Source: Aureispira sp. CCB-QB1
Lineage (GTDB): Bacteria > Bacteroidota > Bacteroidia > Chitinophagales > Saprospiraceae
Reading direction: 5' to 3'
NCBI RefSeq assembly: GCF_000724545.1
Contig: NZ_JHBV01000037.1
Location: forward strand, 1 to 64,000
DNA length: 64,000 bases
Part shown: piece by piece, positions 51,494 to 60,403 of the stretch
How the letters are laid out: each line of letters begins with the position of its first letter
How positions within the stretch are numbered: position 1 is the stretch's first letter
The notes under the pieces: model-generated
Database searches by the model: none
The model's input: only the letters and a program-made list of their open reading frames with translations
Told to the model about the DNA's origin: nothing
Position numbers and translations under genes: made by a program

Positions 51494-51693
51494 TTTAATC
51501 CTCATCTCTAGAGAATACTTTTCTTTGGTCTTTTTTGTTTTTTTACCAATTTATAACACGTTTTGAAAAAAAAAAAGAAACATTATGAGGATGAACTGGT
51601 TATAATCTTTAATTTTGAGCGTACAAAAATAATTACAACTAAGTGTTTACTTGCAAAAAAAGCACTTTACTATTCAACAAAACAAAGTCAAAT

Positions 51694-53286
51694 ATGAACT
51701 TGAAAAAATTAGCACTGTTTGTTACCCTGTTTATTCCATTTTTAATGAATGCCCAATCCCCCAGCACTTCTTCTAATGATGGTTTTAAATGTGGTATCAG
51801 CGAACAATCAGCCGCTTTGATCAAGCAGCGTTTAATGGCCAACCGTCAGTTGTTTACTAGACAAGAGGTCGAAGATTTAGTCACTAAACGCACAACGACT
51901 TATATTCCAGTAACCATACATAATGTAGCGGGGAATTCAAGTGGTCTGGGTAAAACTAGTGAGCAAACTATTTTAGCTTTTTTATGTGGTTTGAATGCCA
52001 TCTATGCAAGCCAAAATGTCCAATTTTTTATGCATGGACCTATTCGCAATAGAATAAGTAATAATATTTATAACAATGCAGGAACCTCTACTTCTCGTTT
52101 TCAAATGTTGAGTTATAGAGTTCCGAATACCTTAAACTTAATTATAGGTGCGTCTATCAATAATCCTAGAGCAAGTTGGTATGATACACAAGGTGATTTT
52201 GTCTTTTTGTTACAACAAATGTTGACTAGTGCTGCCAAAACAGAGGCGCATGAAATTGGACATTTCTTTACTTTACCACACACTTTCTATGGTTGGGAAA
52301 ATAGCACGGTTACAAGTATATATCCTTCTGGAACACTACCATCTTGTACTGTTAATCCAAGTGGTTTTTATTCTTTTGCTCCTGAACGTGTAGCTCGTAC
52401 AGGACCAAGAGCCAATTGTCAAACAGCAGGAGATGGCTTTTGTGATACGCCAGCAGATTATTTTTCAGATCGGTTAAATTGCCCTTTCCCAGCATTCAAT
52501 GATTGTGATACAGTTCCATTGAATCCAGACGAAAGCAATATTATGTCTTATGCTTATGATGCTTGTGTGAATAGCTTTTCAGCAGAACAAGAAGCTGCCA
52601 TTGCAATGGATATAGCTGCTCGTACATGGGTAACAAATACGCCACCAACAACTACCGATGTAACGACATCGACAACTCCTGTGTCTCCTTTGGATGGAGC
52701 GCAATTAGGGGATATCAATGACCCAACAGTATTGTTAGAATGGAATCCTGTGCCAGGAGCAACAATGTATTATGTAGAAGTATATGGAACACAATTTCCT
52801 GGTCTTTGGTTGCCTAATACAAATGATCCTATATACAAAGGGATTGTTAATTCTGCCACACCACAGTTGAATTTGCCAACAACTAATTTGACAGCAGGAA
52901 GTCGTTATGCTTGGCGTGTAAAAGGGTTTAATTCTCTTTCTACTTGTGGACCTATGTCTGCATATGCTGACTTTGAAGCAACAACAGGAGTAACTACATC
53001 TATCAAGGATTTGCCAATTGGGAAGCAAATGTCATTTACAGTTAACTCCAATCCAATTACAACTTCGTCTATTGCTTTGTCAATTTATTCAGCGGAAGAT
53101 GTTGTTGGGTCTATCAAAATCTATAGCGTCGATGGTAGAGAAGCCTTGACTTGGAACAAACAAGATATTAGCAAAGGTTCTAGCATTATTCAATTGCCTG
53201 CTGATGGTTTGGAAAATGGACTATATGTTGCTGTTTTAATTACTGAAAGAGGACAATTGCAACAAAAAATTATCATACAACGATAA
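51694..53286 (+). CDS. Secreted M43-type zinc metalloprotease with T9SS sorting tail, paralogue 1
   Basis: ATG at 51694 (MNLKKLALFVTLFIPFLMNAQ) preferred over the upstream frame from 51643, giving ~530 residues. Metzincin zinc motif HEIGHFFTLPH (His186, His190, His196) and a downstream ESNIMSYAYD Met-turn point to the pappalysin/M43 group. Cysteine-rich segments follow, then a fibronectin-like domain (VSPLDGAQLGDINDPTVLLEW ... YAWRVKGFN) and a T9SS type A tail (SIKIYSVDGREALTW ... GLYVAVLITERGQLQQKIIIQ). Secreted through the outer membrane to digest proteins. The next gene is a close paralogue. Confidence 0.9.
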   Translation: MNLKKLALFVTLFIPFLMNAQSPSTSSNDGFKCGISEQSAALIKQRLMANRQLFTRQEVEDLVTKRTTTYIPVTIHNVAGNSSGLGKTSEQTILAFLCGLNAIYASQNVQFFMHGPIRNRISNNIYNNAGTSTSRFQMLSYRVPNTLNLIIGASINNPRASWYDTQGDFVFLLQQMLTSAAKTEAHEIGHFFTLPHTFYGWENSTVTSIYPSGTLPSCTVNPSGFYSFAPERVARTGPRANCQTAGDGFCDTPADYFSDRLNCPFPAFNDCDTVPLNPDESNIMSYAYDACVNSFSAEQEAAIAMDIAARTWVTNTPPTTTDVTTSTTPVSPLDGAQLGDINDPTVLLEWNPVPGATMYYVEVYGTQFPGLWLPNTNDPIYKGIVNSATPQLNLPTTNLTAGSRYAWRVKGFNSLSTCGPMSAYADFEATTGVTTSIKDLPIGKQMSFTVNSNPITTSSIALSIYSAEDVVGSIKIYSVDGREALTWNKQDISKGSSIIQLPADGLENGLYVAVLITERGQLQQKIIIQR

Positions 53287-53705: not shown

Positions 53706-55265
53706 ATGAAAAAAACAATCTCACTTTGGATGCTTACTTTATTAAGTATAGTATCTCTACAAGCGCAACAGTTTAATTGTGGAGTAGATGCAGCAGCAGC
53801 AGCAATTATTAAGCAACGTATGTTAGCCAATCGCCAGTTGTTTACCAAGCAGCAAATAAATAGCTTGATGACTTCAAGAGCCATCACATATATTCCTATA
53901 ACAATTCATAATGTACGGAATACTAGTGGGGAAGGAGCCATTTCGGAAGATCGTATACTAGGCTTTTTATGTGGTTTAAATGCCATTTATGCGGATCAAG
54001 ACATACAGTTTTTTATTCATGGTCAGATTAATAATTTGACCAATGACTTTATTGATGCCAATTCCAATACCTTTCAAGCAAAGCTAGCGATGTTCCAAAA
54101 TAAGGTAGCGAATACCTTGAATATTTATATTGGACGGTCTACCTTTTATCCAGCAACAGGATATACGAGTTATTATGAACCCAATTATGATTATGTCTTT
54201 TTGCAAGAGCCAATGGTATCTTCTGCGGCGAAAACAGAAGCACATGAAATAGGGCATTTCTTTACTTTACCACATACTTTTAATGGATGGGAAGGAACTG
54301 ATGCAGAGATAGATTATAATGGTGTTAATGCACCAACTCATGTGCCATTGACAGGAGCATTGGTAGAAAAGGTAGCTAGAGGAGCTGGAGGAAATTGCGC
54401 AACAGCAGCCGATGGTTTTTGTGATACAGAAGCCGATTACCACTCTACGGCACTCATTCAAAGTTGCAATTTTACCCCTTCAACATTAGATCCTACAGGA
54501 GTTACCTTAAATCCAGACGAAAGTAATTATATGTCTTATTATAATGATAATTGTCAAAATAACTTTTCTACAGAGCAGAAAGGGGCGATTGCCATGTCTG
54601 TAGCTAATAGAACATGGGTAACCAATACGCCTCCTAATACAACTACTGTAACAGGAGTACCGACACTTGTATCCCCTGCTAATAATACTCCCGCTTCTAT
54701 TGCGAACTCAACGGTTCGCTTGGATTGGGATAATGTTACGGGGGCAACTTGGTACTATTTGGAAGTATATGGCACGCAGTTTCCTGGAATTTGGCTTCCG
54801 AATACCAACGATGTTAAATTTAAAGGAATTGTTACAACAGGGAATAGCCATTATGACTTATCAACAACAGGCTTGACAGTAGGAGAGCGGTACGCTTGGC
54901 GCGTGAAAGCAATTAACCAATATTCAACTTGTGCTGGTTTTGCAAGTTATAATAAATTTGAAGCAACTGCCGCTACAAGTATCAAAGATTTGTCAATAGA
55001 GAAACAGATGACGCTAAAAGTAAGCAATAATCCAATTACATCGAACGACGTAGCTTTATCTATTTATACCGCAGAGGAAGTTGTTGGGTCTATCCAAATC
55101 TATGGAATGGATGGAAGAGTTATGGTTACTTTAGCTAAAGAAACAATTGCTAAAGGGGATAATTTGGTTCAGATCCCTGCTGCTAATTTAACGAATGGAA
55201 TGTATTTAGTAGTTGTGGCAACAGACAGAGGTTTTTTGCAACAGAAATTTGTCATACAACGATAA
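53706..55265 (+). CDS. Secreted M43-type zinc metalloprotease with T9SS sorting tail, paralogue 2
   Basis: 519 residues. Signal peptide (MKKTISLWMLTLLSIVSLQA), zinc motif HEIGHFFTLPHTF (His180, His184, His190), Met-turn NYMSYYND, then a fibronectin-like domain and a T9SS tail (SIQIYGMDGRVMVTL ... GMYLVVVATDRGFLQQKFVIQ). Strongly similar to the gene before it along its whole length, so the pair arose by tandem duplication. The repeat block between them gives each its own upstream region. Confidence 0.9.
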   Translation: MKKTISLWMLTLLSIVSLQAQQFNCGVDAAAAAIIKQRMLANRQLFTKQQINSLMTSRAITYIPITIHNVRNTSGEGAISEDRILGFLCGLNAIYADQDIQFFIHGQINNLTNDFIDANSNTFQAKLAMFQNKVANTLNIYIGRSTFYPATGYTSYYEPNYDYVFLQEPMVSSAAKTEAHEIGHFFTLPHTFNGWEGTDAEIDYNGVNAPTHVPLTGALVEKVARGAGGNCATAADGFCDTEADYHSTALIQSCNFTPSTLDPTGVTLNPDESNYMSYYNDNCQNNFSTEQKGAIAMSVANRTWVTNTPPNTTTVTGVPTLVSPANNTPASIANSTVRLDWDNVTGATWYYLEVYGTQFPGIWLPNTNDVKFKGIVTTGNSHYDLSTTGLTVGERYAWRVKAINQYSTCAGFASYNKFEATAATSIKDLSIEKQMTLKVSNNPITSNDVALSIYTAEEVVGSIQIYGMDGRVMVTLAKETIAKGDNLVQIPAANLTNGMYLVVVATDRGFLQQKFVIQR

Positions 55266-55848: not shown

Positions 55849-56313
55849 ATGTTTGGAAGAGTTAAGAAATGGTTTGGAATAGAGGGAACAAAGATAAGAC
55901 TGCATGTATTACCTTCTTATCCTAGAAATGTTAAAACAATTAACGGAGAAATAGAAATTTACTCCAAGCGTCCCGAAAGAGTTTTGGCAATTAAACTAAA
56001 GTTTATAGAAGTTTATACTCGTGGAAGAGGAGAAGACAAACGTATAGATGAATTCTTACTGGGAACTTGGGAGTATAACAAACCAATAGAGGTCAGCGAT
56101 GGCAACCCACATATGTTGTTCTTTAAATTGGAATTTAACCCTGTAGAATCAGCGATGGATAAGCGGGCAGGCAAAGGACCTTTGTTGAGAGGAGTCGTTA
56201 ATATGATGAAATCTATGAAGGGCGTTCAATCTGACTACAGAATTGAAGCAGAGGCAATTGTTGAAGACAATACTTGGAACCCTTTGGCTAAGGCAAGAAT
56301 TTTATTTGATTAG
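55849..56313 (+). CDS. Arrestin/Spo0M-like protein
   Basis: 154 residues, no signal. MFGRVKKWFGIEGTKIRLHV resembles the start of Spo0M-like proteins, and the strand pattern (IEIYSKRPERVLAIKLKFIEVY, FFKLEFNPVES, DYRIEAEAIVEDNTW) fits half of an arrestin-like beta sandwich, which is shorter than full Spo0M. It would act as a cytoplasmic scaffold. Family assignment is tentative and the role unknown. Confidence 0.55.
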   Translation: MFGRVKKWFGIEGTKIRLHVLPSYPRNVKTINGEIEIYSKRPERVLAIKLKFIEVYTRGRGEDKRIDEFLLGTWEYNKPIEVSDGNPHMLFFKLEFNPVESAMDKRAGKGPLLRGVVNMMKSMKGVQSDYRIEAEAIVEDNTWNPLAKARILFD

Positions 56314-56351
56314 TTTAAGAATAAAAAAATGTATTTCAGAATACTACAAAA

Positions 56352-56388
56352 AAAAACCTTTTGATGTGTAAATCATCAAAAGGTTTTT
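56352..56388 (+). terminator. Terminator before the cobalamin riboswitch
   Basis: AAAAACCTTTTGATG (56352-56366) pairs with CATCAAAAGGTTTTT (56374-56388), ending in a T-run. Confidence 0.82.
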
Positions 56389-56396
56389 TACATTTG
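56389..56396 (+). promoter_or_regulatory. -7 box of the riboswitch-controlled transcript
   Basis: TACATTTG fits TAnnTTTG and lies just after the preceding terminator. TTG at 56361-56363 is 25 bases upstream, slightly long. Transcription would start ~50 bases before the conserved riboswitch core. Confidence 0.5.
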
Positions 56397-56439
56397 CGGC
56401 ATCTTTTAGAGATGTAGGTTTTTCATTTTATGTATTTGA

Positions 56440-56600
56440 AAATTAAAAGGGAATCGAGTGTAAATCTTGAACTGTCCCGCAACTGTAAATAGCATTTTGT
56501 TTTTGTAAAAAAAAATCCACTGTTCAATTTAGAATGGGAAGGAATATAAAAACGCTATAAGTCAGGAGACCTGCCTATATCCTTTTGGTTAATGCTTTCG
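56440..56600 (+). promoter_or_regulatory. Cobalamin (B12) riboswitch
   Basis: Contains the class signature in order: AAAGGGAATCGAGTG (~56446-56460), AACTGTCCCGCAACTGTAAA (~56470-56489) and the B12 box GTCAGGAGACCTGCCTA (56561-56577), with a variable arm between. It binds adenosyl- or other cobalamins in the leader RNA and lowers expression of the next gene when B12 is plentiful. The next gene starts at 56720. A stem GCTAGT..ACTAGC near 56650-56671 may belong to the expression platform. Confidence 0.92.
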
Positions 56601-56719
56601 TGGATTGAAGCAACCAGTCTAGGAGCCTTTTTAGCCTTCCTATATTGGGCTAGTTCTACTTGGACTAGCTTCTATTCTGTTAGCATAGTAAAATTTTTTT
56701 TCATTTAAATTTTAAAGCT

Positions 56720-58033
56720 ATGCAAGCCTTAGTAAAATTTACACTTTTAACCTTCCTATTGGTCGGAACAATGGGCAATCTTTTTGCTCAAAATGAATCT
56801 ATTATTGTTGTCAATGGTGGTATTTATGGCGTAACAAATGCCAATACAACGATTGAAGCTCTAAATTCTGGAGTAGCTACCAATATGGGAACCATTGGAA
56901 CCTCTTCTATTCAAGATGTGCTCGTTGATAGCCAATATGTATATGTAGCAGCGCAAGATAGTATTGTGAAGTACAATTGGATGACAAAAAACAGAGTTGC
57001 TGCCAACGCTTTTGGTGGAGAGAGTACCTTAAGTTTGGCACTTCACAACAACCATTTGTTAGTAGGAAACTGGTATGGACCTTGGGGGGCTACTGGACCT
57101 TACAATCGTCATTTTTTGATTTATGATGCGAATGATTTATCGTTGATTGATAGTATCCCACAAGTAACAAAACCAGCAGATGATTTTGTGGTGATTGGAG
57201 ATTACGCTTATATCGCTCAAAACAACGATAAAACAGTTGGTTTTGGAGACACATTAGGATATTTGGCTGTAGTAGATTTGACAACAATGACTTTGGTTCG
57301 CAACGATACATTATCAACTACAGGAGAAGAAATAGGTCGATTGGTGGTAGAAGGTGATATGATTTATGCAATCAATGGCGCAAGCAACACGATTTCTAGT
57401 TACAACACAGTGACTTTAGCAAAATCAACACAACCAGCTGCTAATGGATTGGATTTGAAACCAGCTGCATATGGACCAACAGCATTCACAAAAGGTGCTG
57501 GTGTTTGGTATTTTCCTTATGATAGTGGAATTGGTAGCTATGATTTGGCTAATAATGCTGTTATAGCTGCGAACATGGTTAACATTGCAGGAAGTTTTGC
57601 TTTTGTGTTGGATACATTCAACAATACCTTCTGTGTGAGCCATATCAATTATTCTGATCAGCTTCAAAACAAAGGAAGAATTTATGATATGAATGGAGAT
57701 AGTGTGGGAATGTTCCAAGTAGAATATTCTCCTGAAGCATTGGCGATTGTTTCTGATATTTTGGTGAGTTCTACTCTCCAAGTAGCTAAATCGAACGAAT
57801 TGATGTATTCTATAAGTCCTAATCCTGCCACAACTACTTTGGCTGTAAATTTTGAAAAAGCAGAAGCTGTAACCTTAGTTGTTTTGAACCAAGTTGGACA
57901 AAATGTATTAACAAAACAATCAACAGATACTGCTGTTGTATTGGATGTTGCAGAATTAACTGCTGGCGTTTATTTCTTGGCTGTTGTTAGTGAAGATGGC
58001 ATTATGAGAACTCAACGTTTTGTAAAGCAATAA
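56720..58033 (+). CDS. BtuG-like (YncE/DUF5074 type) secreted beta-propeller with T9SS tail
   Basis: 437 residues. Signal peptide (MQALVKFTLLTFLLVGTMGNLFA), then seven-bladed-propeller-like repeats (ALHNNHLLVGNWYG, VIGDYAYIAQNND, LVVEGDMIYAINGASN, FAFVLDTFNNTFCV) and a T9SS type A tail (SISPNPATTTLAVNF ... GVYFLAVVSEDGIMRTQRFVKQ). It is directly under a B12 riboswitch. In Bacteroides, BtuG is a surface beta-propeller that binds B12 with very high affinity and works with BtuB, so I infer a B12-binding role here. Here the tail suggests T9SS export and surface anchoring instead of a lipid anchor. No btuB is adjacent. Confidence 0.8.
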   Translation: MQALVKFTLLTFLLVGTMGNLFAQNESIIVVNGGIYGVTNANTTIEALNSGVATNMGTIGTSSIQDVLVDSQYVYVAAQDSIVKYNWMTKNRVAANAFGGESTLSLALHNNHLLVGNWYGPWGATGPYNRHFLIYDANDLSLIDSIPQVTKPADDFVVIGDYAYIAQNNDKTVGFGDTLGYLAVVDLTTMTLVRNDTLSTTGEEIGRLVVEGDMIYAINGASNTISSYNTVTLAKSTQPAANGLDLKPAAYGPTAFTKGAGVWYFPYDSGIGSYDLANNAVIAANMVNIAGSFAFVLDTFNNTFCVSHINYSDQLQNKGRIYDMNGDSVGMFQVEYSPEALAIVSDILVSSTLQVAKSNELMYSISPNPATTTLAVNFEKAEAVTLVVLNQVGQNVLTKQSTDTAVVLDVAELTAGVYFLAVVSEDGIMRTQRFVKQ

Positions 58034-58125
58034 ATTATTGGGAGTAGTGTTTCTAGTAAATTATTCATGAAATGAATATGTGATTTTATGACCATGAATT
58101 ACTTCGAACAATCTGCTTATAAAAA

Positions 58126-58158
58126 AGTCTGTATATCCTCGGATGTATGGGCTTTTTT
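58126..58158 (+). terminator. Terminator after the BtuG-like gene
   Basis: AGTCTGTATATCC (58126-58138) pairs, using several G-T pairs, with GGATGTATGGGCT (58141-58153), followed by a T-run. Confidence 0.7.
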
Positions 58159-59602: not shown

Positions 59603-60403
59603 ATGGCTACATCAGAGTATCAAGGACAAAAGTATTTAAAGAAGCAACAAAAGCTTGTACAAGATGTGTTGACAGTCGAAGAAGCGTTGCAAATTACTAT
59701 TAACAATTTTCCATTTACAGTAACCATGCGAACGCCAGGCAACGATCGAGCATTGGTTCGCGGCTTATTGTTTTCTGAAGATATTTACAGAGGAGACAAT
59801 GCCGCTTTAACCATCGACTATCGACAGAAAAATGCGATTACCAGAATTGCCAATGTGAGCCTAGATAAATCGCTTTTGGGAGCAGGAATAAAAAGCACTA
59901 GAAATTTACTATCTGTTTCTTCTTGCGGTATTTGTGGACGACAAGACTTGGATGAGCAATCTACATTTAAAGATTGCCTGACCAAAAAAGTAACCATAGA
60001 TATAGAGAAGTTGTACCAATCTTTTGAGTTGATGCGTACTCAGCAAGATAATTTCTTGCGCTCTGGTGGATCACATGCCGCAGCAGCTTTTTCTAAGAAC
60101 GGAGAAATGCTAAGTTTAATGGAAGATATTGGGAGACATAATGCAGTAGACAAAGTAATTGGAGATTTGATTTGGAAGGAAGCATTAGGAAAAGCTAGTT
60201 ATTTGTTGGTGAGTGGTAGAATTTCTTATGAAATTGTTTCCAAAGCTTTTTGTGCCCAGATTCCTATTTTAGCTGCTGTTTCTGCACCATCTTCGCTGGC
60301 CGTAGAATATGCCAAACAATTTGGACTGACCTTATTGGGCTTTTGTCGAGAAGAACGTGCTACTTGTTATGCAAATGATTGGAGATTAGCCATTAAGGGA
60401 TAA
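59603..60403 (+). CDS. fdhD: Formate dehydrogenase accessory sulfurtransferase FdhD
   Basis: 266 residues. Motifs: NNFPFTVTMRTPGNDRALVRGLLFSED near 32-58, the sulfur-carrying SSCGICGRQDL (two Cys as CxxC), SGGSHAAAAFSKNGEM, EDIGRHNAVDKVIG and VSGRISYEIVSKA. FdhD takes sulfur from IscS-type desulfurases and passes it to the molybdenum cofactor of formate dehydrogenase. It starts 58 bases after the SGNH gene. No molybdenum or formate gene is adjacent here. Confidence 0.95.
   Translation: MATSEYQGQKYLKKQQKLVQDVLTVEEALQITINNFPFTVTMRTPGNDRALVRGLLFSEDIYRGDNAALTIDYRQKNAITRIANVSLDKSLLGAGIKSTRNLLSVSSCGICGRQDLDEQSTFKDCLTKKVTIDIEKLYQSFELMRTQQDNFLRSGGSHAAAAFSKNGEMLSLMEDIGRHNAVDKVIGDLIWKEALGKASYLLVSGRISYEIVSKAFCAQIPILAAVSAPSSLAVEYAKQFGLTLLGFCREERATCYANDWRLAIKG

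Follow-up and report, generated by a model that had tools for sequence, protein, structure and literature searches.

The window analyzed here (the whole stretch of 64,000 nucleotides from Aureispira sp. CCB-QB1, contig NZ_JHBV01000037.1) carries on its forward strand an ORF for a 437-aa protein (56720..58033, +), a predicted propeller with a BtuG-like fold and a type IX secretion system (T9SS) tail, which is preceded by a cobalamin (B12) riboswitch. The Rfam covariance model RF00174 matched positions 56399-56592 (+) with 108.9 bits (E 2.4e-26) against a gathering score of 31.5, which bears out the riboswitch signature that the first-pass annotation had read at this place. The aptamer is of full length, with all model positions 1-189 covered. 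The annotated extent starts at 56440, about 40 bases late relative to the aptamer start at 56399. A chance riboswitch-like match was ruled out by the score and by the presence of a riboswitch upstream of the homologs as well. By reading of the sequence, CCCGCAACTGTAAA occupies 56476-56489 and GTCAGGAGACCTGCC 56561-56575. This is the single RF00174 match in the whole genome (7.37 Mb, 99.2% complete).

On the 5' side of the aptamer, a 16-pair hairpin that has a T run (56351..56389, strand not assigned) is terminator-like on the minus strand, its stem being nearly symmetric; it lies between an upstream gene for a 154-aa protein and the riboswitch, and probably separates two transcription units. 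The 154-aa protein (55849-56313, +) had no Pfam match, and relatives of it stand directly upstream of the riboswitch-preceded gene in five loci of the Aureispira group (L071-L075). Further upstream, two neighboring secreted proteins (51643-53286 and 53706-55265, +) are alike by eye and appear to have arisen by tandem duplication; the one that was scanned (53706-55265) has Peptidase_M43 and a T9SS tail above cut-off. The consensus of the Bacteroidetes -7 promoter element is TAnnTTTG, with which TACATTTG, read at 56389..56396 (+) just 5' of the aptamer, agrees. In the leader alignment, G380, G284, and L071 have variants of this motif at the corresponding position, and the motif is absent from the equivalent place in L075; the stretches of L070 and L072 end short of its position.

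Directly after the aptamer, a hairpin was read at 56593..56612 (+; TGCTTTC-GTGGATT-GAAGCA). It is identical in six of the seven aligned leaders of the Aureispira group and, in the seventh, still able to form despite changes in both stem and loop. Base pairing is possible between its loop GAUU and AAUC of the aptamer loop L5 (56463-56466), which makes the hairpin a candidate for an L13-like kissing-loop partner of L5. A second, terminator-like hairpin with a weakly T-rich tail (56647..56671, +) lies between the aptamer and the start codon and is a possible expression platform. Since another terminator-like hairpin (58121..58158, +) follows the gene on its 3' side, the gene probably forms a transcription unit of its own. 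A joint operon with the SGNH-hydrolase gene and fdhD on its 3' side was rejected on account of this hairpin and of the rarity of such neighbors in related loci: relatives of fdhD were found near the propeller gene in 3 of 59 loci, and those of the SGNH-hydrolase in none of the 59, their sole matches being short stretches of two propeller genes. We attach no meaning to the position of fdhD (59603-60403), two genes after the propeller gene.

The encoded protein starts with a signal peptide (residues 1-24, 56720..56791, +), recognized by reading of its N-terminus MQALVKFTLLTFLLVGTMGNLFAQ and in agreement with the first-pass annotation; the structural model has a helix at residues 2-20, and no lipobox cysteine was found in the N-terminus. 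A beta-propeller domain with a BtuG-like fold follows (residues ~25-346, 56792..57757, +), as indicated by profile comparison and an AlphaFold2 model with a mean pLDDT of 86.7. Pfam recognizes none of the propeller repeats noted earlier above cut-off, but the best PDB matches of the model are BtuG propellers; apart from the sorting domain, the Pfam scan of the whole protein yielded nothing above that level. The C-terminal part (residues 365-437, 57812..58030, +) is a T9SS type A sorting domain (TIGR04183, 45.6 bits, cut-off 23; PF18962, 40.6 bits, cut-off 27), so the earlier reading of a T9SS tail holds. The genome encodes the T9SS translocon (SprA_N, PF14349, 556.6 bits) and has at least 147 matches to a tail-including profile, 150 of 289 candidates having been scored.

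Distribution of the propeller family and its riboswitch linkage

A scan of the genome-contig collection with the single protein found no relative, and when the PDB was searched with it, nothing beyond the sorting domain and noise came up. The order-level search of 396 genomes recovered relatives of full length, the most distant at about 22% identity, amid many matches to the tail only. The first set of loci (L003-L031) consisted of the best 29 homologs besides the window's own, L003 being from the window's own species, and the second of 59 loci (L070-L128) obtained by searching named genomes with an alignment of 10 members. The nearest relatives in the second set belong to Aureispira (76-82% identity); the others come from Saprospira grandis, Flavobacteriales, Bacteroidales, and further Bacteroidota MAGs. 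Sequence set A1 used 24 of the 29 homologs (L003, L009, L010, L016, and L018 were omitted as near-identical to others), and A6 used 55 of the 59 loci (L072, L106, and L127 were omitted as partial, and L078 as a 924-aa protein with extra domains); A3, A4, and A5 used 30 of 34, 29 of 36, and 26 of 37 listed members, respectively. All 56 family members matched the T9SS type A domain at E 0.01.

A cobalamin-type riboswitch lies upstream on the same strand at 27 of the 29 loci of the first set (20/20 and 7/9), that of L007 being scored as RF01482; none was detected at L024 and L029. In the second set, 49 loci were counted after removal of ten whose contigs, judged by length, were already present in the first set, one genome with two loci (L117 and L121) being counted twice, and a riboswitch was found 46-267 bases before the matched start at no fewer than 40 of them, a lower bound because the riboswitch scan of this set had stricter filters. 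Eight of the nine loci without a detected riboswitch have one gene neighborhood in common. Altogether, a riboswitch precedes the gene at 67 of 78 loci, all on different contigs and chosen by protein homology alone. Chance is no explanation for this linkage, since 37 of the 40 second-set genomes with a match have exactly one cobalamin riboswitch. In the order sample, such riboswitches were present in 346 of the 396 genomes and some 30-odd full-length propeller relatives were found, so most cobalamin riboswitches of the order must precede other genes. In the phylum sample of 395 genomes, at least 4 had a propeller match at E 1e-25, a minimum, because four candidates were scored per genome and the T9SS tail crowds the first look; this points to a sparse family.

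Two cases call for separate mention. A contig labelled Woesearchaeota archaeon (L090) carries the riboswitch, the propeller, btuB, btuG, and a further T9SS-tailed gene, cl2 (see below), and was probably misbinned. One genome (G433) has two copies of the T9SS propeller (L117 and L121), of which one stands alone with a riboswitch, and the other is followed by cl2-btuB-btuG and has no detected riboswitch.

Cobalamin uptake genes in the relatives and in the genome of CCB-QB1

Clustering of the neighbors at the 59 loci revealed three genes that, wherever present, lie downstream of the propeller gene and share its strand: cl2, encoding a T9SS-tailed protein of about 330 aa (37 loci), the TonB-dependent receptor gene btuB (39 loci), and btuG, encoding a lipoprotein propeller (34 loci). 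All three are present at 31 loci, and the commonest order is riboswitch, T9SS propeller, cl2, btuB, btuG. The receptor profile matches BtuB2 of Bacteroides thetaiotaomicron (8BMX chain C) at 6.6e-158, and the lipoprotein profile matches BtuG3 and BtuG2 at 1e-111 to 1e-106 (BtuG3, 1.2e-111); the one neighboring BtuG that was scanned, that of L093, matches DUF5074 at 4.2e-21. No btuB was found in the fetched flank of 20 of the 59 loci, several of which are interrupted by contig ends. At the loci of Aureispira and Saprospira other than L072, which are uninterrupted, none of cl2, btuB, and btuG follows the propeller gene, with the exception of cl2 in L075. At seven loci (L078, L083, L085, L087, L089, L091, and L093) the next gene after the T9SS propeller encodes a protein of about 495 aa distinct from cl2; the one scanned (L083) matched an FGE-sulfatase domain. 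In Flavobacterium, a cobalamin riboswitch has been described before a TonB-dependent transporter (PMC9723704).

In the genome of the window the three genes are scattered and unlinked to the propeller gene. The first-pass annotation had expected btuB elsewhere in the genome, and it was indeed located at G000:C5:94631-96502, with 520 bits to the operon-derived profile that itself matches BtuB2 of B. thetaiotaomicron. No gene scored above cut-off for TIGR01779 in this genome, and the best match below the cut-off (L032) differs from the gene found with the operon-derived profile. A lipoprotein BtuG with the lipobox LSAC is encoded at G000:C14:56869-57930 (272 bits), behind genes that by eye resemble those of molybdopterin synthesis (L163:7224-8582), an arrangement to which we attach no meaning. 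The gene cl2 is found at G000:C14:172479-173456 (L164:8974-9972, - strand; 424 bits), where it stands apart. Each of the seven other genomes searched contains one strong match to BtuB, one to BtuG, and one to cl2. No cobalamin riboswitch was detected in 59 kb around the btuB, btuG, and cl2 genes of CCB-QB1 at E up to 1, and the propeller gene is therefore the only one of the four with a detected riboswitch in this genome. The genome also encodes two B12 enzymes, the B12-dependent methionine synthase MetH and methylmalonyl-CoA mutase. In a sister species, a second cobalamin riboswitch (L183; G380:C1:2299029-2299236, - strand) stands directly before a gene for a TonB-dependent receptor-like protein, which is not the BtuB ortholog and represents a candidate second corrinoid transporter.

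Relation of the two T9SS-tailed proteins to BtuG and BtuH

The first-pass annotation had called the propeller BtuG-like, and the structural comparison agrees: BtuG chains are the best PDB matches of the predicted model, occupying ranks 1-12 in Foldseek and ranks 1-11 in VIA-align (Z 27.5-28.9 over about 300 residues), several of them being cobalamin complexes. Since other propellers come next with Z 26.6, the fold alone cannot single out BtuG or prove function, and gene linkage is the stronger argument for the latter. When the family profile was compared with that of the operons' BtuG (hhalign), the probability was 99.4 and E 2.6e-21 over 324 columns at 14% identity; with 56 members, E was 2.1e-16. 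A search of the PDB with a 25-member profile reached BtuG at about 1e-10 and gave a similar score to a surface-layer propeller of archaeal origin. The 56-member profile (hmmsearch) retrieved no BtuG at E 1e-6, solely sorting-domain matches, and none of the 56 T9SS propellers matched DUF5074 (PF16819) at E 0.01. In the phylogenetic tree, the 56 T9SS propellers and 32 BtuG proteins form two separate sets with a split support of 1.0, and for this reason we regard the T9SS propeller as BtuG-like, but not as a member of BtuG. By the criteria of sequence, namely the missing lipobox and DUF5074 and the T9SS tail in 56/56 members, the T9SS propellers are a family separate from BtuG.

Among the contacts of BtuG2 are the loop Asn54-Thr64 and the residues Trp194, Tyr239, Trp272, Tyr316, and Tyr335 (PMC10404256). 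The clamping loop maps to residues 32-42 of the protein studied here, with an NGG motif at residues 32-34: Asn54 corresponds to residue 32 (N in 47/56 members) and Gly56 to residue 34 (G in 53/56). Tyr335 corresponds to residue 311, which is Y or F in 49/56 members. Trp194, Tyr239, Trp272, and Tyr316, that is, four of the six named pocket residues, are not kept, at positions where the alignments, with 13-15% identity, are uncertain. The net charge of residues 25-350 is -17, and it ranges from -12 to -34 in the eleven other members counted; a net charge of -18 is given for BtuG2 (PMC10404256).

The companion protein cl2 has a T9SS tail in all 29 members scanned, and any further Pfam family matches at most one of these. 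The cl2 model (mean pLDDT 85.1) most resembles, over residues 41-238, BtuH2 of B. thetaiotaomicron (7BIZ; VIA-align Z 11.5, 162 residues), followed by the C-terminal part of BtuG1 (Z 10.3, 161 residues, 22% identity) and the best unrelated fold (Z 8.8). The accession 7BIZ is that of the BtuH paper (PMC8941943). BtuH was not among the Foldseek top 50, a listing led by partial matches with TM-scores of about 0.2, and no sequence match between cl2 and BtuH was found. Domains of the BtuG and BtuH types also occur fused in B. thetaiotaomicron (PMC12751083). On the basis of these models, BtuG and BtuH seem to have a counterpart in the relatives, namely a pair of proteins delivered by the T9SS.

Proposed role and comparison with known systems

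The riboswitch, the T9SS domain, the predicted fold, the gene linkage, and the genomic presence of btuB, btuG, SprA, and B12 enzymes are directly supported; from them we infer B12 repression, B12 binding, surface attachment, and hand-over to BtuG/BtuB. The propeller is thus likely, though by no means certain, to be a B12-repressed, T9SS-delivered catcher of corrinoids at the outer surface that feeds BtuG/BtuB and acts in addition to the lipoprotein BtuG. When B12 is plentiful, the riboswitch would bind it and the gene would be shut; when B12 is scarce, repression would be lifted and the propeller made. In B. thetaiotaomicron, reporters of operons with such riboswitches were shut by B12 (PMC12751083). 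The signal peptide is predicted to take the propeller across the inner membrane; passage of the outer membrane would be through the T9SS, which would recognize the C-terminal domain and most likely attach the protein to the cell surface. There, the acidic BtuG-like propeller could bind corrinoids in its central pocket and pass them to the lipoprotein BtuG, the lid of the TonB-dependent transporter BtuB. In the relatives, cl2 would be exported by the T9SS likewise, as a second capture protein.

Some of this evidence would also suit other readings. The same propeller might be released by the T9SS as a soluble corrinoid carrier that later docks on BtuG/BtuB, a possibility that we consider rather doubtful. 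Haemophores are comparable soluble carriers for haem; type A sorting domains serve attached and released cargo alike, and besides its sorting domain no anchor is visible in the 437-aa sequence, and these last two points would suit release, but a free protein would be costly in open sea water. Vesicle-borne B12 binders are used in a siderophore-like manner by B. thetaiotaomicron (PMC12751083), which would again favor a carrier. An extension of this reading to Bacteroidota outside the studied gut Bacteroides, in which a second T9SS-exported capture layer of BtuG-like and BtuH-like proteins would be made in B12 shortage and released as soluble "corrinophores" feeding BtuB-BtuG, is similarly speculative. 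Nor do we think it likely that the propeller is a B12-regulated accessory protein without B12 binding of its own, which helps in assembly or binds other surface parts. That four of the six named BtuG2 pocket residues are not kept would fit such a role, as would the precedent of BtuL and BtuK2, which belong to loci of B. thetaiotaomicron and showed no cobalamin binding (PMC12751083); against it stand BtuG as the nearest fold, the agreement in acidic charge, and the conserved N-x-G loop at the ligand clamp.

Two further readings are far less probable than these. With so many T9SS cargo proteins in the genome, an ordinary surface protein (an adhesin or similar) could have come to lie behind a riboswitch by accident, but the linkage across loci chosen by protein homology, the single riboswitch of most matched genomes, and the btuB that follows at 39/59 loci leave very little room for this. 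The first-pass annotation proposed an alternative surface anchoring route, which would make the propeller BtuG itself with its lipid anchor swapped for a T9SS tail. The same fold and the same kind of riboswitch control speak for such a swap, but a lipoprotein BtuG is kept in the same genome and lies close by at 34/59 loci, side by side with the propeller in many relatives, and the tree parts the two sets at full support; the propeller is consequently not an alternative form of BtuG, and we rejected this highly improbable reading. The surface-attached catcher acting in addition to BtuG is the reading that we prefer. If it is true, and a BtuH-like partner is likewise delivered by the T9SS, the lipid-anchored proteins would not be the only layer of B12 scavenging in other Bacteroidota, the T9SS would be tied to vitamin uptake, and a testable function would be obtained for two families whose main domains are without a Pfam model. 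It also suggests a way of searching genomes, in which a T9SS tail encoded behind a B12 riboswitch would mark such genes.

Known T9SS type A cargo consists mostly of enzymes and adhesins, with which the 437-aa protein shares the signal peptide and a TIGR04183 domain above cut-off. Judged by titles and abstract openings, the open-licence papers listed yielded neither a T9SS-exported B12 protein nor B12-related cargo of type A. In the one paper among them that has both BtuG and type IX secretion, BtuG appears as a BAM substrate and in the references, and nowhere else (PMC12578637). In the publications consulted here, the surface B12 binders BtuG, BtuH, BtuJ, and BtuK of B. thetaiotaomicron are lipoproteins, the lipobox of BtuG being Cys32-MKWD (PMC6143338).

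Of the known systems, BtuG1/2/3 of B. thetaiotaomicron (PDB 8BMX, 8BMY, 8OKV, 8P97, and 3DSM) are the closest in fold (Z up to 28.9), and the likeness extends to the B12 riboswitch, the linkage to btuB in relatives, the strong negative charge, and the N-x-G loop at the ligand clamp. The differences are the T9SS sorting domain in place of the lipobox and lipid anchor, the 14% identity, the lack of DUF5074, the separate clade, and the occurrence beside BtuG rather than in its place. The B12-binding propeller BtuK1 (PDB 9S6C), from a B12 locus of B. thetaiotaomicron (PMC12751083), shares the propeller fold, but with Z 25.8 it scores below BtuG, is not matched by the 25-member profile at E 1, and is a predicted lipoprotein. 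From BtuH2, cl2 differs in its T9SS tail (29/29) and in the absence of a lipobox, by eye, from the aligned sequences. The DUF4465 binders (BtuJ1/2 and relatives) are likewise B12-binding proteins that Bacteroidota and other phyla export, and those from outside the gut that bind B12 include one from Fluviicola taffensis; they are, however, beta-jelly-rolls rather than propellers, and the text of the paper makes no mention of the T9SS (PMC13398666). Finally, the riboswitch of CCB-QB1 is full-length like the usual RF00174, but it stands ahead of a T9SS propeller gene, and none was detected near the btuB and btuG of its own genome.
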